Shown: piece after piece, positions 11,185 to 54,620 of the stretch
Layout of the letters: every line of letters begins with the position of its first letter
How positions within the stretch are numbered: position 1 is the first letter of the stretch
Source of the DNA: Allocoleopsis franciscana PCC 7113
GTDB lineage: Bacteria > Cyanobacteriota > Cyanobacteriia > Cyanobacteriales > Coleofasciculaceae
Length of the DNA stretch: 64,000 nt
Reading direction: 5' to 3'
NCBI RefSeq assembly: GCF_000317515.1
Contig: NC_019739.1
Coordinates: 1-64,000, forward strand
Position numbers and translations under genes: made by a program
Notes under the pieces: model-generated
Told to the model about the DNA's origin: nothing
The model's database searches: none
Seen by the model: the letters and a program-made list of their open reading frames with translations, nothing else

Positions 11185-12003
11185 GACGTTGAAGGCAAGT
11201 AAAGAAATTTAGTTCATTTACTTGATAACCAATTTGAAAAACTCTCCCCCTCCATCATGGGTTGAAAAAAATATGCATCTACATTTGGATAGATAACAAG
11301 CGATGCTCCAACCGAAGGCTTATGCCTTTTGGGAAGTATTGATTCAAATATTGCAATTTCCGGCGCTGCTGTCACCTGTGAGCAGCTCTTTGGTGTGATT
11401 ATGCGATCGCCCTACAGCTATCAAGGGCATCCTACAGCAGGAGTTGCCGCCGCGTCACATGGTGAGCAGAGTGTGTCGTAGCGTCGCGCACTGTCAGAAG
11501 CGATCTCTGCGATCGCTTCCCAACGATACCACGACTGAGAAAGTTAATTGACGATATCTGGCTTTTAGCGATCGCTCAGCCGTCTGAGCAGTTCCCTCAT
11601 TTTGAGGGATTTGCATTTTCCTGCACTGGTGAACGCCTATTCTTTTCACGGCTTCTTCTTTGAACGGTATCGGGAGCCTTTTGCAAACGCTTAGCGGAAA
11701 GGCTGGTTAATACCAACTCCGGGTTGACTACCCCCTTTATCAAGAAGGATAATCTGCTTTGAGGCGATCGCCATTGCTTTGAGGCAGACCAGCCAGCAAC
11801 AGCGCTACACGCGATTGCCGCAGAGATTAATTCAGCCCCTGTAGGCAAATTTTGGAAGGTTAAAGGCAGTAGCGATCTGCCGTAGGCGGCAGCGCTTCGC
11901 TATCGCACCTAGCGCAGTGCAACTATGCAATCGCCAACCTCGTCGCTGCCCTCGCAAAACCGATACGATGAGGAATAAGTCTCTCACTGACTGAACTTGT
12001 CCT
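11185..12003. other. 819-bp intergenic region with decayed gene remnants
   Basis: No intact gene is supported here. The region should hold the leader of the T4SS operon at its left end. It contains several HIP1-like GCGATCGC sites, a tract at about 11870-11910 with short repeats of AGCGC and GCGATC type, and the parB-like fragment listed separately. An 83-codon open frame at 11597-11848 on the minus strand lies partly over the fragment in the wrong frame, so I do not call it a gene. Confidence 0.6.
11571..11690 (-). pseudogene. Internal fragment of the ParB-like gene
   Basis: On the minus strand this stretch translates as a run containing RKMQIPQNEGTAQTAER, identical to a central segment of the intact ParB-like protein encoded at 19961-20899. 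Flanking similarity is weaker (KKPRGGMG-like residues upstream) and no start or stop matches, so it is a short decayed copy. It shows that a second parB-like locus once lay next to the transfer operon, or that part of it was moved here by recombination. Confidence 0.8.
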
Positions 12004-14519: not shown

Positions 14520-15419
14520 CTATGTAGGGCAGCATGATACTTGATATGTTAGGGAACGTGCATCAAGATCAACAACGACTGTTCCTCCTCGATTTTTATC
14601 TACCTGCCGCCATACTTCATACCCTATAAGAATTGCTTTCTCCCAATCTCCCAGTGAACACTGAGCAACTTCTAAGTAGGAGGTCATATTCTTTATAGTT
14701 CTGAGTAGTTGGTAATCAAGTGTGGAAACTCCTTCCAAGAAAGAATGATCCTTGGCATAGCTGAAAATGAGTGCTGATATACCTTCCTCAATTGCCTTGG
14801 CTCGACCGCCGTCTTCAACCTCATCTACTTTAGGATTACTTTTGCGTTTACGGCTACCCAGTAGTTGACGGACAACCGGAGACCAACCCAAAACTGCCGC
14901 ATAGGACAGATGGAAAACGTCGTGAAAGCGGTAGCCATCGCTTAAGTAGGAGTTATCGGTGAGGTCATCCCCAATCTTTTTTCCGTCGATGAATGCCTTC
15001 ATCTTCACCGAACTATCTTGACTTACCTCAGCAATCTCTACCACAAACTGCCGTGGTAAACGTTCGTGTTCTGGAAAGTCCCTATCAAACATATATCCTA
15101 TGGCTTTAACACCTGTTTGTACAGAATTTCTCCATCCCCAGCGGTCAAGACACTTTTTAAGATTACCTTCTGCAATTTCTTCCAAATCAAGCTCAAACTT
15201 GCTTGCTACGTTGGCAATATACCAAAGCAAATCACCCAATTCTTCTGCAATACCGTCTTTGAAGAGTTTATGAGCATCTCCGTCACGGAGAAATTTTTTA
15301 TACTCTGTAAGGAGTGTACCTGCTTCACCCACCAAACCAAGCAGGGGTACGATTACTTTATTCTCGTCGGGAATCTGATCAGTCTTCAATGCTTGCTCTT
15401 GATACTCGCGGAAATTCAT
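14520..15419 (-). CDS. MazG-type nucleotide pyrophosphohydrolase with C-terminal extension
   Basis: This 299-aa protein has an N-terminal MazG domain (residues about 1-95): GLVGEAGTLLTEYKKF supplies the first Glu-rich helix and EELGDLLWYIANV the second, the EExxD-type metal sites that hydrolyse NTPs or dNTPs to monophosphates. Residues 150-299 form a second conserved-looking region (DGYRFHDVFHLSYAAVLGW; GGRAKAIEEGISALIF), which I recall as a MazG C-terminal domain linked to DNA hypermodification neighbourhoods. It is the last gene of the six-gene operon, 18 bp after the hypermodification gene, with a good AGGGG site. Expected job: sanitising or supplying particular nucleotides for the pathway. 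Confidence 0.82.
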   Translation of the reverse strand: MNFREYQEQALKTDQIPDENKVIVPLLGLVGEAGTLLTEYKKFLRDGDAHKLFKDGIAEELGDLLWYIANVASKFELDLEEIAEGNLKKCLDRWGWRNSVQTGVKAIGYMFDRDFPEHERLPRQFVVEIAEVSQDSSVKMKAFIDGKKIGDDLTDNSYLSDGYRFHDVFHLSYAAVLGWSPVVRQLLGSRKRKSNPKVDEVEDGGRAKAIEEGISALIFSYAKDHSFLEGVSTLDYQLLRTIKNMTSYLEVAQCSLGDWEKAILIGYEVWRQVDKNRGGTVVVDLDARSLTYQVSCCPT

Positions 15420-15437: not shown

Positions 15438-16598
15438 CTATTTCGAGTTGGAGTTTGTAGCGTTTTGGGCTGTTCTGTATTGTTTAATAGCCTCGTTAAT
15501 TCCCCACTTGGGAGGAAACCAGTAATCAATTGGTTGTCTGTTAGCTGAATATTTTTGCTTTATGCGAGTTCGACCTGATACTCCGGAAATTTCCGGGTGT
15601 TTCATCCGGGCATACTTATCGACCTCGCAAAAGAGATTTTGGCAGTCAATTAACTGCAACGGGCGTCCAAAGAGAGACTGAAAATCAAGACCTAAACGCT
15701 CAAACTCAGATTCTTGGTTTTCTGCCATCAGCTTAATGATTTCTGGCTCATTAAGACCACCCAGATCGGCAAAACATTTCCGAATACCATCAAGCGCACC
15801 TGGTCCAGGAACCACAAAACTCATTTCACTAAAGTTCGTGAGTTTGCTGTAATTAACATCCGTAATGAACTGATATGCAAGGAAGTCACCGATAGTGGGG
15901 TATTCACGCAAAAGGTCAAATCCTCGATGCATATTTGGCGCATCAGTAAGCTTCTTGGGCAGTTCATCGGCCATCATCTTCTCAATCAACTTGAGATGAG
16001 TCTGGTGCTTTCTTGTATGTCTAAGTCCTTTTCCTCCTGACGGCATGATGTATGCTGCTGAATAGATACGTTGACCTTGTTCTATCGCTTCGGTAAGAAT
16101 TTCGTCGTAGCGCTTAAAAGAATATTCAGCGTAGATAATCTTACCAAGTTTACTTTCCAAAAGCCGCCAAGTTTCGATCTTGTTGAAAATCTTAAACAGA
16201 ATGATTCTGAAAAACACTTCATCCGAAGTGGTCGGGAGATCTTCGCGGTAGATAACCTGACGGATCAGATATTGGCTTGTGCGATCTGATGCACGATAAG
16301 CATTAGTAAATTTGAAGGTAGAAAGAATTGGATCTTCAGTCCAAGGCATCGGTTCTCGGCACAACTTTTTGAAAAAGATGTTCTGCCTTTCTGCTGCGAA
16401 ACGCCAGTAGGTATCAAATACAATAGTAGGCTTGGCAGGCAGAAGGTGAGAGTATGCAGCAACATCTATGCTTTGAGAGCTTTTGGGTGTACTATAGTCG
16501 CCAAAGTTAAGACTTAGTTGTTCGTCAAGAGATGTATCTTTTTGAGTAATTTTAAATTTTCCTCTCGGTGGTTGTTTTGTTGGCATTATACGTTCCAT
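15438..16598 (-). CDS. Putative DNA base hypermodification protein (HMUDK_hel / aGPT-Pplase-like)
   Basis: The product is 386 aa. The core (about 55-330) carries a set of motifs I associate with the predicted alpha-glutamyl/putrescinyl-thymine pyrophosphorylase or 5-hmdU DNA kinase helical family: TYWRFAAERQNIFFKK, FTNAYRASDRTSQYLIR, RILLFKIFNKIETW-like, IYSAAYIMPSGG, GDFLAYQFITDVNYS and VVPGPGALDGI. The fold is thought to be DNA-glycosylase-like. Family members are predicted to alter a modified thymine or hydroxymethyluracil base in DNA. No P-loop is visible, so a kinase reaction by this chain alone is unlikely. It lies 10 bp after the TS-like gene. The family call is from memory of motifs; the reaction here is unknown. 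Confidence 0.75.
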   Translation of the reverse strand: MERIMPTKQPPRGKFKITQKDTSLDEQLSLNFGDYSTPKSSQSIDVAAYSHLLPAKPTIVFDTYWRFAAERQNIFFKKLCREPMPWTEDPILSTFKFTNAYRASDRTSQYLIRQVIYREDLPTTSDEVFFRIILFKIFNKIETWRLLESKLGKIIYAEYSFKRYDEILTEAIEQGQRIYSAAYIMPSGGKGLRHTRKHQTHLKLIEKMMADELPKKLTDAPNMHRGFDLLREYPTIGDFLAYQFITDVNYSKLTNFSEMSFVVPGPGALDGIRKCFADLGGLNEPEIIKLMAENQESEFERLGLDFQSLFGRPLQLIDCQNLFCEVDKYARMKHPEISGVSGRTRIKQKYSANRQPIDYWFPPKWGINEAIKQYRTAQNATNSNSK

Positions 16599-16608
16599 CC
16601 ATTGCTTG

Positions 16609-17394
16609 TTAGTCTGTCCTTGAGGGTATCACTTTTCGACATACTTTTATGACTGGGGCGAGAGTCTCTGAACTCTTGGTGATGTTATCCAGCTTGGCTA
16701 CACCAATAAAGCAGTTCATCCGGCTAAATTTTAGATCCATTTCGTGAGCCATAAAGTTCCCTAGTCTGCACAGTCCTAAGTAGTTCCCATAAGCTTTATT
16801 AAAGACCTGCTGAGTAGCATAAAAAGCATTCATCGTAAGGTTATTTTTATGTGGGACAAAGCTTATATGTTGTAGACAAGGAAAAGGAAGTTGAGCGCTA
16901 CCCACATGGTCTCTCCCAGGATCGAAAATTGATGCCTGAAACATCGATCTCCTAACGGCTGGACGATCCTTATACTTAGAAATAATGTATTCAAGTTGGT
17001 TACCATCATTTGGACCAGAGCCGAAGGCAATAAGTCTTTCAAAGTAAATGCCACGTTTATTCTTATTTAGTTCTACGGCTTTTATTCTGGGGAAAATCTT
17101 GAGATATCGCTCAAATAACTCCTTTCGTCCGTCTTTAGAATGTCTCCAGAGAGAATGAGGAAAAATCGTATTCGCAACAGTATCTATTGTTTGCTCACCT
17201 TCGGCAGCAAGACAATTGTCAAGCGACTGTCGAATATCCGTATCCTCATTTGGTATGCCATCATTAAAACCTGTGATGCTCACCACAAGAGGGGAAATTT
17301 CCTTACCTGGATTATCAATAATGTGCAAAAATGCTTTTGCCCAAGCATGGGAAAGGTTGTTTTCATCAATCAAAAGAGGTGAACTGTTACTCAT
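16609..17394 (-). CDS. Divergent thymidylate-synthase-fold protein
   Basis: The product is 261 aa from the ATG at 17394, which overlaps the ImmA stop by 8 bp and has a GAGGTGG site. The C-terminal half matches the thymidylate synthase core: FPCLQHISFV puts Cys173 at the nucleophile position, and NAFYATQQVFNKAYGNYLGL with LGNFMAHEMDL follows the TS pattern of LxxxxYQRSxDxxLGxPFN and alLthmiA. The phosphate-binding Arg of the YQRS motif is absent (YATQ), and the GDTHLY motif appears as GVAKLD. Dedicated TS homologues such as dUMP and dCMP hydroxymethylases feed DNA hypermodification; this one probably works on an unusual substrate. The N-terminal 100 residues are not alignable by eye. Confidence 0.75.
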   Translation of the reverse strand: MSNSSPLLIDENNLSHAWAKAFLHIIDNPGKEISPLVVSITGFNDGIPNEDTDIRQSLDNCLAAEGEQTIDTVANTIFPHSLWRHSKDGRKELFERYLKIFPRIKAVELNKNKRGIYFERLIAFGSGPNDGNQLEYIISKYKDRPAVRRSMFQASIFDPGRDHVGSAQLPFPCLQHISFVPHKNNLTMNAFYATQQVFNKAYGNYLGLCRLGNFMAHEMDLKFSRMNCFIGVAKLDNITKSSETLAPVIKVCRKVIPSRTD

Positions 17395-18268
17395 CTTCCA
17401 CCTCTTCAAGATGCCGATATTGACTTAGACCAATAAACTGATACCGCGAGACACGAACAAAGACAGCCCATCCGGTGTCACGGCAATAAACCCTCACAAT
17501 ACCGGGACGGTTAGCTTTAAAAAGTTGTCCCTTCGGGTGATTTTCTTCAAGGGTGATAGTATCATTTACAGCTTGTGCACCTGTTGGAAGCAAAAGGAGA
17601 CTTCCAACTTCGGCATCAATTGTTGGCATTAACCAGTGTGCATCGGCGATAGTCAACGGGTCAGTCGATGGACGCCCAAGCACCTTTTCACGAATAGTTT
17701 TGGGCTTTGTTTTGAGAAGCGTACTAGCCCTTGAAGAGGAGATCATCTTAAGAGCATAAGCCATGTGAGTAATTAGCGTTTCGTACCCAACGCCGAAATT
17801 ACAGGCAATTGTAAAAATCTGCTCTGGCGTTGCCGAAGCCGCATCCCATCCACGCGAAACGAATGCTTTCCGCACGCATAAAATTGGCATGAGCAAAAAT
17901 CCAGCAAAGGAGTTAGCTAAAAACTCCTCTGGCTCAAAAGCCTGAGAGCTTTCTGCTTCTCCTAGCAGTTCATCGATAGTCGAACCATGTCCAAAGACAT
18001 GATGACCAAGTTCGTGAGCACAGGTAAAGATGCGTCTGGGGAGAGGACGTAATGCGGAAAGTAAAATTACCGACTCGGCTTCTCGGAGATAGATCCCCTC
18101 CATACTGATGTCAACAAACTTGACTCTCACATTGAGCTTGTCGCACAAGCCATAAATACAGAGTGGGCTTTTGTTGTCAAAACCTGTTTTTCTCCGCACC
18201 TCGATTGCTTTCTGCTGGGCTTGTTGTGCCAAAACCTGTCTCTGATTTCTCAAAGTCTGATTCCTCAA
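17387..18268 (-). CDS. ImmA/IrrE family metallo-endopeptidase
   Basis: The product is 293 aa. CAHELGHHVFGHG at about residues 83-95 gives the HExxH zinc site, followed by EEFLANSFAGFLLMP, the usual third ligand region (E...AN.FA). ImmA/IrrE proteases cleave or inactivate a partner XRE repressor when a stress signal arrives. Here the partner gene is immediately upstream with a TTGA overlap: the start is a TTG at 18268 with a strong GGAGGAG site. The C-terminal ~130 residues form an extra domain, probably a sensor. It most likely relieves repression of the operon it sits in. Confidence 0.9.
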   Translation of the reverse strand: MRNQTLRNQRQVLAQQAQQKAIEVRRKTGFDNKSPLCIYGLCDKLNVRVKFVDISMEGIYLREAESVILLSALRPLPRRIFTCAHELGHHVFGHGSTIDELLGEAESSQAFEPEEFLANSFAGFLLMPILCVRKAFVSRGWDAASATPEQIFTIACNFGVGYETLITHMAYALKMISSSRASTLLKTKPKTIREKVLGRPSTDPLTIADAHWLMPTIDAEVGSLLLLPTGAQAVNDTITLEENHPKGQLFKANRPGIVRVYCRDTGWAVFVRVSRYQFIGLSQYRHLEEVEDE

Positions 18269-18615
18269 AGTACTTCTCCTCCTCTACGCATTGAGGCAAG
18301 TATTGTTAAAAGTCGATCAAGGTCATCTGGTTTAAGCTTTCGGAGTTCTCTCGCGGCAAGCTGAATCTTGTCGTCATGGATATCAAGCTTGTCTGCACCC
18401 TCCCCAAGCAACCATGACACACTTACGTCATAAATTTCGGCAAGCTTCGTGATCTCATCAGCAGAAACCTTTCTATTCCCAGCTTCCGCTTCCGTAATTG
18501 AAGGGCGATGAAGACCAAGCATCTTAGCTACCTGAGCTTGGGAAAGCCCCGCCATCTTGCGAGCTTCACGCAAGCGGGCTGCAATAATTGACCTCTTCTC
18601 TTCTGTGTAACTCAT
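18265..18615 (-). CDS. XRE-family helix-turn-helix repressor
   Basis: The product is 116 aa. Residues 12-68 form a classic Cro/C1-type HTH (AGLSQAQVAKMLGLHRPSITEAEAG; then VSADEITKLAEIYDVSVSWLL). The C-terminus is a short helical dimerisation or protease-target region. An AGGAGAG site lies 8 bases before the ATG, and the gene starts 2 bp after the carrier-protein stop. It probably binds the palindromes at 18920-18946, which overlap the predicted -10 box, and is switched off by the ImmA-type protease encoded next. Confidence 0.92.
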   Translation of the reverse strand: MSYTEEKRSIIAARLREARKMAGLSQAQVAKMLGLHRPSITEAEAGNRKVSADEITKLAEIYDVSVSWLLGEGADKLDIHDDKIQLAARELRKLKPDDLDRLLTILASMRRGGEVL

Positions 18616-18617
18616 AC

Positions 18618-18905
18618 CTAAGTCTCTCCTCTGTTGACAATCTCACAGACTACAGCAACAGACTCCTCAATGGTGAGCCATCGCTTGCCATCCTTTGAGA
18701 GAAATATGTTGTTATTGTTGGGAATCTCTACATCTAGTCTGTCGGCTAGCATACCAATCGCTTCAATACATAGGAGGCTATCAAACCCTTCAAGGTCAGT
18801 CATGGGACAAGTTGTTCCTGTTATTTGGGTGGCTTGGTACCCACTATCGCTTTGGATCTCCTGGAATACTTCAATCAGCTTGACTTCCACATCCTCTGGA
18901 CTCAT
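18618..18905 (-). CDS. Acyl-carrier-protein-like protein, first gene of the hypermodification operon
   Basis: This is a 95-aa acidic protein with the carrier-protein pattern: helix I (VEVKLIEVFQEIQ), then LEGFDSLLCIEAIGMLADRL, where Asp42-Ser43-Leu44 matches the DSL site that takes 4'-phosphopantetheine, and a last helix (TIEESVAVVCEIV). Length fits an ACP (75-95 aa). Carrier proteins hold acyl or aminoacyl groups as thioesters. In this operon it could present an amino acid or acyl group for attachment to a base, which is inference. Nothing in the window encodes an adenylating ligase or a phosphopantetheinyl transferase; chromosomal enzymes would have to serve. Confidence 0.7.
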   Translation of the reverse strand: MSPEDVEVKLIEVFQEIQSDSGYQATQITGTTCPMTDLEGFDSLLCIEAIGMLADRLDVEIPNNNNIFLSKDGKRWLTIEESVAVVCEIVNRGET

Positions 18906-18919
18906 GGCACAGTCTCTAT

Positions 18920-18967
18920 TCTTACTGATGGTAAGAATATCTTACCAAAATAGACAAGAGTTGCCAA
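18920..18967 (-). promoter_or_regulatory. Promoter with overlapping tandem palindromic operators for the six-gene operon
   Basis: Read on the minus strand, TTGGCA (18967-18962) and TAAGAT (18944-18939) are separated by 17 bp, a good sigma-70-type promoter. The -10 box lies inside an inverted repeat, GGTAAGA-ATA-TCTTACC (18930-18946). A second inverted repeat shares one arm: TCTTAC-TGATG-GTAAGA (18920-18936). Tandem operators over the -10 box and just upstream of the first gene (start 18905) fit autorepression by the XRE protein. Confidence 0.75.
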
Positions 18968-19017
18968 GCTCAGTCAAGCACGGATTCGGAACTGAGTTGA
19001 CTTGGAGTTACTCAAAG

Positions 19018-19179
19018 ATGTCTGACCGACTGGTTGCTGCCACACCCTCTCGCAACTGTTCAACCTCATCTAACAGCCGCGCGATCGCTCCCCCTAACGT
19101 TACTGCCTCAGTTTCCAACCTATACTTGGAAAGTCGCTCCCAAGTATCAGGAGTCACGTACACCAAGTAATTACAGCCA
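19018..19179 (-). pseudogene. Duplicated 3' end of the ParB-like gene
   Basis: On the minus strand this translates from GCNYLVYVTPDTWERL to VEQLREG and then a divergent tail with its own stop. It matches the last ~50 residues of the intact ParB-like protein (GCDYLVRVTPDTWERL ... VEQLRKRG). It begins directly after the vapC stop codon. Together with the intact gene on the other side it places the vapBC pair between two direct copies of about 150 bp. Confidence 0.85.
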
Positions 19180-19184
19180 AATTA

Positions 19185-19622
19185 TCAATCCGTCTCTAGC
19201 GTTTCCCCATCAACGACTACCAACCCTACCCCGCAGCGAGTTGCCGCTTCTGCCAACCGGGTATCAAGTGTTGCGAGAGGCAATGCCAATCGTAGTGCTA
19301 ACTCTAAATATGCCGCATCATAAGCAGCTATTCCTTCTTGTCGTCCTAATACCAGAGTTGACGAGAGTGCGTTGCTATCCGTAGCTTCATCAACGTGAAT
19401 TAGCAGCGACTGTAACAAAGCAATAGCTAGTTCAGATTGCTCAGTCGTCATGCGGTTACGTCGTTCTGCAACCAGTAAAGTATTAGCAACTTCTAGCGAC
19501 CAAATTCCCGGCACAAAAGCTTCACAATCCGGCATCATTGCAAGTAGTGCATTGGCATAATCGTCATTTTCATCTACTAAACACCAACTAATTGCTACAG
19601 AACAATCCAAGACAAACTGCAT
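19185..19622 (-). CDS. vapC: PIN-domain toxin, VapC-like
   Basis: The product is 145 aa with the PIN-domain acidic residues in place: FVLDCSVAISWCL (first Asp), SLEVANTLL (Glu), and AAYDAAYLELAL with LDTRLAEAA (C-terminal Asp residues). VapC toxins are Mg-dependent RNases, often cutting tRNA. The start overlaps the antitoxin stop by one base (TAATG), the normal operon order of antitoxin then toxin. Confidence 0.9.
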   Translation of the reverse strand: MQFVLDCSVAISWCLVDENDDYANALLAMMPDCEAFVPGIWSLEVANTLLVAERRNRMTTEQSELAIALLQSLLIHVDEATDSNALSSTLVLGRQEGIAAYDAAYLELALRLALPLATLDTRLAEAATRCGVGLVVVDGETLETD

Positions 19623-19894
19623 TAAAACCTGCGCCCCTCTTCAATCATTTCGCGGATTGAATTTTTATCCAATGCCACTTCTTGCCGCAGTTGTCGCATT
19701 CTAGCAATTGCTTCAGTAATTGATTTTTTAGTAGTAAGCTTTCCCCAAGTATTATACCGAGGTTGAGTTTCCTCCGATGATAACGGCTGTACAACTACCA
19801 CCACCTCAACAGAAGTATCTTTAAAATCAGTGGGCATTTGGAGAAGCAATATCCCATCTGTCCCGATATGCGATCGCATCTTCTTTATTTCCAT
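19622..19894 (-). CDS. VapB-like antitoxin
   Basis: The product is 90 aa. The N-terminal beta-rich part (MRSHIGTDGILLLQMP) and C-terminal helical tail (KNSIREMIEEGRRF) match the small antitoxins paired with PIN toxins in cyanobacteria. The C-terminal REMIEEGRR end is a typical toxin-binding segment. It is coupled to vapC downstream. Translation could start at the first ATG or at the in-frame ATG five codons later. Confidence 0.8.
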   Translation of the reverse strand: MEIKKMRSHIGTDGILLLQMPTDFKDTSVEVVVVVQPLSSEETQPRYNTWGKLTTKKSITEAIARMRQLRQEVALDKNSIREMIEEGRRF

Positions 19895-19960: not shown

Positions 19961-20899
19961 TCACTTTGCGCCTGGTTCCGCCCCACGTTTTCGCAACTGT
20001 TCAACCTCATCTAACAACCGCGCGATCGCTCCCCCCAACGTTGCCGACTCAGTTTCCAACATATACTGGGAAAGCCGCTCCCAAGTATCAGGAGTCACGC
20101 GCACCAAATAATCACAGCCAACCCCACTCGTGTAACTAACACCCTCTTCCCGACTCAGCGATCGTTTGCCCTTCACTCTTGACTGACGGCTTCCAATAAT
20201 TCGAGACTTCATAATCGCTTTAGCTTCGTCCGGTTCCCGCCTTGCCACCTCAGCCAGTTCCAAAGTATCCCTTTTCGTCAATTTGGCATCGCGGCTGAGG
20301 ATATACCGTCGAGTCTCCTCCCCTAACATTTCGATCAGAGCGTCCACTGCCAGCGCGAATTTAGCATCCCGCTCAATAGTGGCACGACTCACCTTTAACT
20401 CACTCGCCAATCGCTCAGCCGTTTGAGCAGTTCCCTCATTTTGAGGGATTTGCATTTTCCTGTACTGATTGGCACCCATTCCCCCTCGCGGCTTCTTCTG
20501 TTGCAGATACCGCAGACCCCTCAAATAGCTTAAAGCTTCTTTAGTCAGGTTGCGCCTGCTCAGTTGATTGTTGATAATCCAGTTCCGCGCCGCCTCCCAG
20601 TCAGGTAGTTCAATCTCAACCGTCTGGAAATCAATGCCATGCTGACAGCAAATTTCCCAACGGTTGTGTCCATCGAGCAAGATGTCATGTCCTGCCCAGA
20701 CTACCAAAGGGTCTCGGCATCCTTCTTTGATCAGGTTAGTTTCCAACTGCCGCCGCTCATCAGTTGAGAGAGGTGGAATCAGATTCTTGAACTCAGGATC
20801 GATCTGAAGGCTGCGAGGGGATACTGGACTCGTGGTAAGAACAGAGCCTTCCTGGGAAATTTTGACTCCAGAACGTCTATCATCAAGGTTCAGATTCAT
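19961..20899 (-). CDS. ParB-like nuclease-fold DNA-binding protein
   Basis: The product is 312 aa. The N-terminal ParB/Srx domain (about 30-115) includes GCRDPLVVW and the signature DGHNRWEIC. A central HTH (AERLASELKVSRATIERDA) follows. The C-terminus has a coiled segment (LLDEVEQLRKRG). Proteins of this layout are common plasmid regulators and partition-like factors, distinct from the ParA-linked ParB at 32872. It is adjacent to the primase gene and may regulate replication. Two broken copies of its sequence lie elsewhere in the window, so it is a recombination hot spot. Confidence 0.82.
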   Translation of the reverse strand: MNLNLDDRRSGVKISQEGSVLTTSPVSPRSLQIDPEFKNLIPPLSTDERRQLETNLIKEGCRDPLVVWAGHDILLDGHNRWEICCQHGIDFQTVEIELPDWEAARNWIINNQLSRRNLTKEALSYLRGLRYLQQKKPRGGMGANQYRKMQIPQNEGTAQTAERLASELKVSRATIERDAKFALAVDALIEMLGEETRRYILSRDAKLTKRDTLELAEVARREPDEAKAIMKSRIIGSRQSRVKGKRSLSREEGVSYTSGVGCDYLVRVTPDTWERLSQYMLETESATLGGAIARLLDEVEQLRKRGAEPGAK

Positions 20900-53060: not shown

Positions 53061-54620
53061 ATGTCATATCAACCTCTGCATCAAAAATACCGTCCTCAAA
53101 CCTTTGCACAGCTCGTCGGTCAAGACGCGATCGCTACTACCCTAACCAACGCCATACGACTGCAAAGAATTGCTCCAGCTTACCTGTTTACAGGACCCAG
53201 AGGGACGGGCAAAACCTCCAGCGCTCGCATTCTTGCCAAATCCCTCAACTGCCTCTCCACTGACCAACCCACTGTAAATCCTTGTGGAGAGTGTGAAGTG
53301 TGTCGGGCGATCGCGTCTAGTTCTTCCTTAGATGTAATCGAAATCGACGCGGCTAGCAACACTGGGGTAGATAATATCCGCACACTCATTGAAAGTGCTC
53401 AGTTCACTCCTATGATGTGCCGCTACAAGGTCTTCTTAATTGATGAAGCGCATATGCTCTCAACTCAGGCACTAAATGCCTTACTCAAGACTCTAGAGGA
53501 ACCCCCCTCACGAGTTGTCTTTATCCTTGCTACCACCAATGCAGAGCGGTTATTGCCCACAATTATCAGTCGCACGCAACGCTTTGACTTCCGCCGCATC
53601 CCTCTAAACGCGATGGTACAGCACTTGAAGGCGATCGCAGAACTTGAGAGCATCGATATTACTCCACAAGCCTTGAACCTAGTGGCTCAAATCGCTAGCG
53701 GGGGATTGCGGGATGCTCAGAGTCTGTTAGACCAGTTGAGTCTTTTACCCAAACAGATAACTCCAGAGACGGTGTGGGAGTTAGTGGGAGCGGTGAGCGA
53801 GAGTGACTCCATTGCCCTGATAGAAGCGCTTACACTGAAGGACTTCACAGCCTTGCTTTGTGTGACTCGACGATTGGTAGATGCTGGAATTGAGCCACTG
53901 ACCATTCTGCAAACCCTAACAAGTAGTTGTCGAGAGCTACTAATTGCTTTAACGAGTCCGACTCGACTTGACCTGGTAACGGTCAGCCCCCAGAGTTGGG
54001 AGAAACTGTGTGAGTTAGCCCAACACTGGGACATCACCGCCTTACAACACACTCTACAGCAACTCCAAGTCGGTTCGCGGCAGCTCACTAACACACAAGT
54101 TCCTGTACTTTGGTTAGAAGCCGTTCTACTTTCGGTGTCCCCTCAGACATCGACGACACCTGCTACAACCACCACGCCCCTTATTGCTGACACTCTGACA
54201 CGGGGACACTCTGACGCTGGGAATGGAGAAAAACTCTCCGCGTCTCCCACTCTCCGCGTCACCGCGTCTTTTTCCTCCCTTCCACGACGGAAAAGCCCAA
54301 CAACAAGCACGTCAAAAAATGGTACCGGTACTCAGCCCACTTTGACAGTATTTCAAGAGCCTGAGCAGGAACTCACTAGCAGTGTCAGTGTTACTTGGGA
54401 AAAAGTATGGCAAACTTCCCTAAGCTATCTCTCTCCTCTCAACAAATCCTTGCTCTCAAATCACGGCTCTTTACTCGACGTAGAGGGGTCTGTGGCTCGT
54501 GTTGGTATCAAATCTGCCAGCCTCGCTAAAATCGCCACTAATAGCCGCGCTGATATCGAGAGTGCTTTGAGCAAGGCACTAGGAAAGCCGATTGAGGTGA
54601 ACATCGAAGTGAGTCATTAA
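53061..54620 (+). CDS. dnaX: DNA polymerase III gamma/tau subunit, plasmid-borne
   Basis: The product is 519 aa. The AAA+ clamp-loader part is complete: YRPQTFAQLVGQDAI, Walker A GPRGTGKT (45-52), zinc site (Cys64, Cys75, Cys78, Cys81), LIDEAHMLS (126-134), and sensor/arginine finger region (TTNAERLLPTIISRTQRFDF). It is shorter than chromosomal tau and has no intein. Residues about 375-420 hold an in-frame insert (RGHSDAGNGEKLSASPTLRV) of the same repeat type as in the VirB10-like gene. Role: clamp loading on the plasmid replisome. Confidence 0.93.
   Translation: MSYQPLHQKYRPQTFAQLVGQDAIATTLTNAIRLQRIAPAYLFTGPRGTGKTSSARILAKSLNCLSTDQPTVNPCGECEVCRAIASSSSLDVIEIDAASNTGVDNIRTLIESAQFTPMMCRYKVFLIDEAHMLSTQALNALLKTLEEPPSRVVFILATTNAERLLPTIISRTQRFDFRRIPLNAMVQHLKAIAELESIDITPQALNLVAQIASGGLRDAQSLLDQLSLLPKQITPETVWELVGAVSESDSIALIEALTLKDFTALLCVTRRLVDAGIEPLTILQTLTSSCRELLIALTSPTRLDLVTVSPQSWEKLCELAQHWDITALQHTLQQLQVGSRQLTNTQVPVLWLEAVLLSVSPQTSTTPATTTTPLIADTLTRGHSDAGNGEKLSASPTLRVTASFSSLPRRKSPTTSTSKNGTGTQPTLTVFQEPEQELTSSVSVTWEKVWQTSLSYLSPLNKSLLSNHGSLLDVEGSVARVGIKSASLAKIATNSRADIESALSKALGKPIEVNIEVSH
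54195..54290. repeat. Low-complexity dispersed repeat inside dnaX
   Basis: The sequence alternates ACACGGGGACACTC, CTCCGCGTCTCC and CACTCTCCGCGTCACCGCGTC type units. A related patch with GCGGGGACATGGAGACGC (read on the minus strand) lies at about 4180-4225 in the VirB10-like gene. Both are translated in frame. Confidence 0.65.

Follow-up and report, generated by a model that had tools for sequence, protein, structure and literature searches.

An acyl-carrier-like protein leads a repressor-controlled gene cassette of predicted pyrimidine-modification enzymes in distantly related bacteria

What does a small acyl-carrier-like protein do at the head of a group of genes that looks like a DNA- or nucleotide-modification operon? 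The question is raised by a 64,000-nucleotide stretch of DNA from Allocoleopsis franciscana PCC 7113, called here the window, which is a section of a 146-kb contig. An initial annotation had placed a carrier protein with an Asp-Ser-Leu phosphopantetheine site at 18618-18905. The ORF occupies exactly this interval on the minus strand, encodes 95 aa and carries D-S-L at Ser43, within the motif F41-D42-S43-L44-L45. Fatty-acid, polyketide and peptide synthesis are built on carrier proteins, and we know of no established role for them in nucleotide or DNA modification. The two features from which the analysis starts are:

18618..18905, minus strand: stand-alone carrier protein (ACP-like), 95 aa, gene 1 of the cassette (ORF, alignment, AlphaFold2, Foldseek, VIA-align)
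18777..18779, minus strand: codon of Ser43, the predicted 4'-phosphopantetheine attachment site in D42-S43-L44 (sequence, alignment, model)

As a single sequence, the protein matches PF00550 of Pfam with E = 0.026 and 15.2 bits, the gathering cut-off being 20.8 bits, which is a limit of detection and not a biological feature. Several NCBIfam acyl carrier models match at E values of about 0.009-0.07 (best 0.009), and a relative from Streptomyces passes the PF00550 cut-off of 20.8 with 25.7 bits, its record being annotated as 'acyl carrier protein'. Searches of PDB sequences with the profiles of the ACP and of the HMUDK-type protein encoded further downstream gave nothing or noise. In the alignment Ser43 is kept in 41 of 41 complete orthologues; the ACP of locus L048, which has lost its N-terminal half, was set aside. 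The serine is also unchanged in four distant relatives. F41, P34, A49, L53, I61 and F68 are likewise invariant across the 41 aligned sequences, and residue 42 is Asp in the window protein and most other members, Asn in a rhizobial group and Thr in a group led by sphingomonads.

The AlphaFold2 model, built on the orthologue alignment, has a pLDDT of 91.4 and a pTM of 0.84. Its helices span residues 3-20, 43-56 and 79-94, helix III is short or irregular, and helix II begins with Ser43, i.e. the helix-II context that had been proposed for the Asp-Ser-Leu triad is present in the model. ACPs dominate the top 50 Foldseek matches in the PDB, with probabilities near 1.0 and E values of only about 0.02, and the best VIA-align match (Z 10.9 over 79 residues) is to a holo donor-ACP. 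The initial annotation had suggested comparison with ACP folds and conservation of Ser43 as checks, and both came out in its favour. Given the invariance of Ser43, the predicted fold, the ACP matches and a gene order conserved across phyla, a chance match to DSL is ruled out, and the product of 18618-18905 is almost certainly a carrier protein.

The carrier gene leads its operon, as had been claimed: more than 50 loci show the cassette with the ACP at its head, in the fixed order ACP, XRE, ImmA/IrrE, TS-like, HMUDK-type protein and MazG. The profile matches also agree with the proposed TS-like and base-modification-type neighbours. In the window the genes that follow the ACP are:

18265..18615, minus strand: XRE/Cro-type HTH repressor, CapH-like (HTH_3 1.4e-15; capH 2.3e-17)
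17387..18268, minus strand: ImmA/IrrE (M78) metallopeptidase, CapP-like, overlapping the XRE gene by 4 nt (Peptidase_M78 2e-13; capP 1.1e-13)
16609..17394, minus strand: TS-like enzyme (TIGR03283 2.4e-11; alignment of 33 sequences; profile alignment to ordinary TS)
15438..16598, minus strand: HMUDK_hel protein, 'nucleotide kinase domain' in PGAP (PF18723 5e-114; model pLDDT 85)
14520..15419, minus strand: MazG NTP pyrophosphohydrolase with a MazG_C domain, the final gene of the window cassette (MazG_C 3e-84; MazG 4.6e-5)

From ACP to MazG the junctions measure +2, -4, -8, +10 and +18 nt. The 2-nt and 4-nt junctions, together with the conserved operator described below, suggest that ACP through MazG form one transcription unit. 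A scan of genomes with the TS-like profile gave 53 loci, most of them with the identical gene order. The hosts are mostly Cyanobacteria and Alpha-, Beta- and Gammaproteobacteria, with single loci in Eremiobacterota, Acidobacteria, Chloroflexi and one Bacillus assembly; the Bacillus AcpS (see below) nests among sphingomonads in the AcpS tree, so contamination or recent transfer is possible for this locus. The ACP is rare and patchy, being present in 4 of 292 cyanobacterial genomes and in 2 of 385 alphaproteobacterial genomes, the latter sample having been built around a genome in which it was already known. Conjugative plasmids of Nostoc, Sinorhizobium and Rhizobium bear the cassette. The window also holds, at 53061-54620, a DnaX clamp-loader gene that is common to the conjugative plasmid Nostoc C057, on which the same cassette is found.

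In L017 (8492-12183) the TS-like gene is interrupted by an insertion of about 2.9 kb with two ORFs of 483 and 402 aa. In L048 (6380-6720) the N-terminal half of the ACP, including the Ser region, is gone and the remaining cassette including AcpS is intact, so that either the assembly is at fault or the carrier has been knocked out naturally. A different arrangement is seen in L022 (7391-10301, genome G310), where two HMUDK_hel genes stand in tandem, with frames of 630 and 340 aa.

Upstream of the carrier gene, the following features were found in the window:

18930..18946, minus strand: operator-like perfect palindrome GGTAAGATATTCTTACC, overlapping the -10 element (TAAGAT); the sole site in the window, 0.12 expected by chance, conserved in relatives
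18939..18967, minus strand: Sigma-70-like promoter TTGGCA-17-TAAGAT with TG before the -10 element (consensus scan)

The operator GTAAGAnnnTCTTAC is a conserved element some 40 nt ahead of the ACP start, and almost every cassette has the core of the palindrome, GTAAGNNNNNCTTAC, in this position. In 917 kb of DNA from the loci the pattern GTAAGN5CTTAC matches 51 times, each time just upstream of a cassette ACP, where less than one match is expected by chance; eight of the 51 have no listed neighbour, as the ORF call began further upstream, and these lie about 38-44 nt before the ACP starts. The consensus scan itself gave no enrichment of promoters over shuffled sequences, and the support for the promoter is the conserved operator and a TTGAC element in relatives. 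Since the operator matches all lie just upstream of cassette ACPs, the carrier is very probably the first gene of an XRE-controlled transcript.

The XRE repressor and the ImmA-family peptidase share an operon whose promoter bears the operator, as in a CapH-CapP-type pair. In this respect the cassette resembles both CapH-CapP of CBASS and DdrO-PprI of Deinococcus, in which single-stranded DNA activates cleavage of the repressor (PMC10904395). By analogy, the XRE protein of the cassette may be cleaved on a signal of single-stranded DNA or damage. The cassette differs from CapH-CapP of CBASS in that the carrier gene precedes the repressor, and PADLOC profiles detected no CD-NTase or CBASS effector among the six cassette genes.

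A holo-ACP synthase (AcpS) is encoded in 46 of 56 cassettes, at the 3' end, either convergent or as the last gene. Of the ten cassettes that lack it, L021 and L065 reach a contig end and L020/L062 are one locus present twice, which leaves 46 of 53 assessable cassettes; several of these cassettes are near-identical. The motifs HGxDxV, KEAxxKA and SxSH are conserved. In a quick tree the cassette enzymes form one clade (SH-aLRT 95) apart from the host AcpS-type enzymes of the same genomes, the search for ACPS-family genes having covered 18 cassette genomes. Over 36 loci the pairwise identities of AcpS correlate with those of the ACP (r = 0.90), as do those of TS (0.92) and HMUDK (0.92); shared cassette ancestry gives such correlations too, so they point to inheritance as a unit and not to contact. 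The window cassette has no AcpS, and a search of the Allocoleopsis franciscana PCC 7113 chromosome gave a single PPTase-type gene, which would stand in for it.

These data bear on the simplest alternative, namely that a plasmid acquired the protein by chance as an ordinary ACP of fatty-acid or polyketide synthesis, unrelated to its neighbours. Plasmids do carry stray ACPs and the PP-binding match is weak, but a stray gene would hardly stand at one and the same point of over 50 cassettes from several phyla, behind a conserved operator and with a dedicated, co-varying AcpS. Nor are FAS or PKS genes repeatedly seen among the neighbours. We consider this origin extremely improbable, and it was rejected on the dedicated AcpS and the lack of recurring FAS or PKS neighbours.

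The TS-like enzyme retains the catalytic Cys173 and the base-recognising Asn204 in 33 of 33 aligned members. The TS motif R-S-x-D is replaced by A-T-Q-x, i.e. the Arg166/Asp169 pair is lost (the assignment of residues to E. coli TS numbers follows what is commonly known of TS), and for this reason the use of substrate or cofactor probably differs from that of ordinary TS. CMP 5-hydroxymethylases are its sole sequence relatives in the PDB (E 0.007). For the HMUDK-type protein the profile search reported only the helical domain PF18723, and no P-loop 5-hmdU kinase domain was detected. Its model falls below a pLDDT of 50 in residues 1-52. The best match of this model is 8z2n, the 5-phosphomethyl-dU glycinyltransferase PUGT of phage PaMx11 (Z 11.3, 3.7 A, 221 residues), and this match is distant, with 9% identity, a Foldseek E of 0.06 and a Z near the chance level for helical proteins. 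DUF2419 and DNA glycosylases are the next fold matches. On a distant match, the annotated 'nucleotide kinase' would thus most resemble a DNA-glycosylase-fold glycinyltransferase.

A close known counterpart of these two enzymes is the thymidine hypermodification pathway of phages such as M6, ViI, phiW-14 and PaMx11, which leads from 5-hmdU via 5-PmdU to an amino-acid or amine adduct (PMC6449724). The cassette has in common with it a TS-family enzyme with the catalytic Cys, an HMUDK-type protein whose fold is nearest, by a distant match, to the PaMx11 PUGT, and a predicted chemistry at pyrimidine C5. It differs in being bacterial (plasmid or chromosomal) and repressor-controlled, in having a carrier with a dedicated AcpS, and in that the P-loop 5-hmdU kinase domain is undetected. 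With regard to the initial annotation as a whole, the carrier fold, the invariant serine, the lead position and the TS-like and base-modification company all stood, whereas the XRE/ImmA switch, the operator, the AcpS of the relatives and the likeness of the 'kinase' to PUGT had been overlooked.

The best explanation, and the one towards which we lean, is that the ACP leads a mobile, XRE/ImmA-controlled cassette that makes a modified pyrimidine nucleotide or base. We favour, to a similar degree, a carrier that acts covalently in the modification chemistry. AcpS would attach 4'-phosphopantetheine to Ser43, and infection or DNA damage would cause ImmA to cleave XRE, so that the operon is induced. 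MazG, joined in about one third of the loci by a dCTP-deaminase-like (DCD) protein, would supply or clean the pyrimidine nucleotide, whose C5 would be activated by the TS-like enzyme via Cys173. The holo-carrier would then provide the group that comes to sit on the C5 methylene, as a loaded amino acid or acyl/one-carbon unit or by means of its own thiol, and completing or reading the modification would fall to the HMUDK-type protein. The full proposal goes further: in an immune strategy governed by an XRE/ImmA switch that responds to phage or damage, a dedicated carrier, made active by AcpS, would offer an amino acid, a one-carbon unit or its phosphopantetheine thiol to a TS-activated pyrimidine, and a group would pass from the carrier protein to a base. 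This is tentative, and we put it below even odds.

The loading step is where the alternatives enter. The initial annotation had noted that a dedicated ligase is absent, and this holds throughout: no adenylation-type ligase motif lies beside any cassette. More generally, no ligase or acyltransferase was found with the cassette, the search being for one adenylation-enzyme motif in flanking ORFs, so that other loading enzymes could escape it. A host enzyme may load the carrier, or the carrier may act via its own thiol or be a regulatory subunit. Small free-standing carriers of similar fold (PDB 4h2t, Z 9.4) are charged in Bradyrhizobium by amino acid:[carrier protein] ligases; the identity to them is 13%, and we know of no role for these stand-alone carriers.

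It is conceivable that no acyl group is ever loaded. The bare thiol would then attack a TS-formed 5-methylene or 5-phosphomethyl pyrimidine to give a carrier-tethered nucleotide, or the carrier would shuttle a folate one-carbon unit as in ALDH1L1. AcpS is in fact the sole activating enzyme associated with the cassette, no ligase motif being found nearby, and the ALDH1L1 carrier domain, which takes part in folate one-carbon chemistry, is among the fold matches, as a fold match only. The TS-like enzyme keeps its Cys and Asn and has lost the folate-binding TS Asp, so its acceptor or donor may have changed; however, an enzyme without Arg166/Asp169 might just as well be a non-catalytic TS. This reading is pure inference, we know of no precedent for a TS-family enzyme that uses a carrier thiol, and we regard it as quite improbable.

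A less improbable alternative, which we would still call unlikely, is that the ACP serves as the sensor subunit in a switch formed with XRE and ImmA. Its holo or acyl state would depend on AcpS and host metabolism and would control the cleavage of XRE by ImmA or stabilise one of the two, and the chemistry of TS, HMUDK and MazG would proceed without a carrier. ACP is known to bind partners such as SpoT, MukB and IscS without donating acyl groups, and the PDB fold matches of the model include the structural, non-donating ACPs of respiratory complex I and MukBEF. The ACP always stands directly before XRE and ImmA, distant members included. Two cyanobacterial loci, L031 and L054, have TS and HMUDK without ACP, XRE and ImmA, which are jointly missing; ribD-like and metH-like genes are their common chromosomal neighbours. 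A TS-HMUDK locus is also seen in L073/L074, L073 beginning at a contig end. MazG is kept in two of the three ACP-less cyanobacterial genomes (L031, L054, L073), and a genome search gave no cassette-family ACP elsewhere in any of them. As these three genomes keep TS and HMUDK without such an ACP, it may belong to a regulatory triad. The absence of a loading enzyme also suits a regulatory carrier; bare thiol, one-carbon load and regulatory ACP each fit the missing ligase equally well. On the other hand, AcpS lies at the enzyme end of the cassette, and among the 385 alphaproteobacterial genomes the ACP was found only alongside the TS-like gene. Moreover, the switches CapH-CapP and DdrO-PprI are reported to use ssDNA and no carrier (PMC10904395).

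If the cassette makes a modified pyrimidine, as we favour, its purpose is, by analogy, likely to be defence against phage or foreign DNA. E. coli anti-phage systems with TS, dNMP kinase, 5-hmdU kinase and NMAD domains were validated in 2026 (DefensePredictor, PMC13092281), which makes a defence role plausible for an operon with TS and 5hmdU-kinase-type domains. MazG and MazG-C are predicted as defence domains in the same work (PMC13092281), the likeness of the cassette in TS, 5hmdU-kinase-type domains and MazG being one of domain type. The word 'carrier' is absent from the main text of that paper (PMC13092281). The thymidylate kinase beside three cassettes parallels the kinase domain of the E. 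coli systems. AbiE, Lamassu LmuB and Shedu genes neighbour cassettes, and the defence reading agrees with these as well as with the CapH/CapP-like pair and the plasmid and sporadic distribution.

The individual parts are of known kinds, i.e. a carrier, an AcpS, a CapH/CapP-type switch and phage-type thymidine hypermodification enzymes. New here are the cassette AcpS, the conserved operator, the likeness of HMUDK to PUGT, the loss of the TS Arg/Asp pair, and the relatives with UDG in place of HMUDK. The concepts of HMUDK, MazG_C and TS neighbourhoods reportedly stem from Burroughs et al. 2015 (NAR 43:10633) and Iyer et al. 2013, which may list part of the cassette. We found no paper in the literature covered that describes a system of this kind with a carrier protein; the Iyer 2013 and Burroughs 2015 surveys lie outside that coverage, which limits the claim of novelty. 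The cassette would link carrier chemistry with nucleotide modification; a new nucleotide or DNA base, and perhaps a new mechanism of immunity, could then be sought by experiment, and the conserved operator gives a direct means of switching it on.

Among the accessory genes, the DCD-like protein is near the cassette in 17 loci (e.g. L064, 11327-12076) and carries a C-terminal hydrophobic stretch. Ordinary TS and thymidylate kinase are also among the genes beside cassettes. A metallophosphatase whose second half weakly matches thymidylate synthase (L075, 3725-5881; also L033, L039, L040, L055 and L063) often adjoins the ordinary TS and in three cases thymidylate kinase too.

Distant TS-like relatives on plasmids of Sulfitobacter, B. 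elkanii and Sphingomonas have the order ACP-XRE-ImmA-(C1 peptidase)-TS, with a UDG-superfamily protein where HMUDK would be. Loci of this sister type are L120 (4640-9643), L121 (4096-10523), L123 (4583-9587) and L135-L137, and several of them have gained a C1 (papain-like) peptidase. In the B. elkanii cassette a chagasin-type I42 inhibitor domain is fused to the ImmA protein, and acpS, a dCTP deaminase and a Shedu nuclease are present as well. Further alphaproteobacterial relatives have a small DS-motif ORF ahead of XRE or ImmA, and more distant relatives of the cassette occur in Streptomyces.

A phage-borne cassette was rejected, as the ACP had no match in phage records or viral contigs and the TS profile none in viral contigs. 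Distant HMUDK_hel homologues are present in 489 phage records; that of Brevibacterium phage LuckyBarnes adjoins TS and glycosyltransferases.

The DNA directly upstream of the window cassette (19185-19894) probably encodes a toxin-antitoxin pair, made up of a PIN-domain (VapC-like) gene and a small partner ahead of it. Repeated protein segments (VTPDTWERLS..., YRKMQIPQNEGTAQTAER...) are encoded at 19008-19166, 19961-20899 and 11494-11848, which suggests that partial copies of a ParB-like/HTH plasmid gene are scattered around the region.
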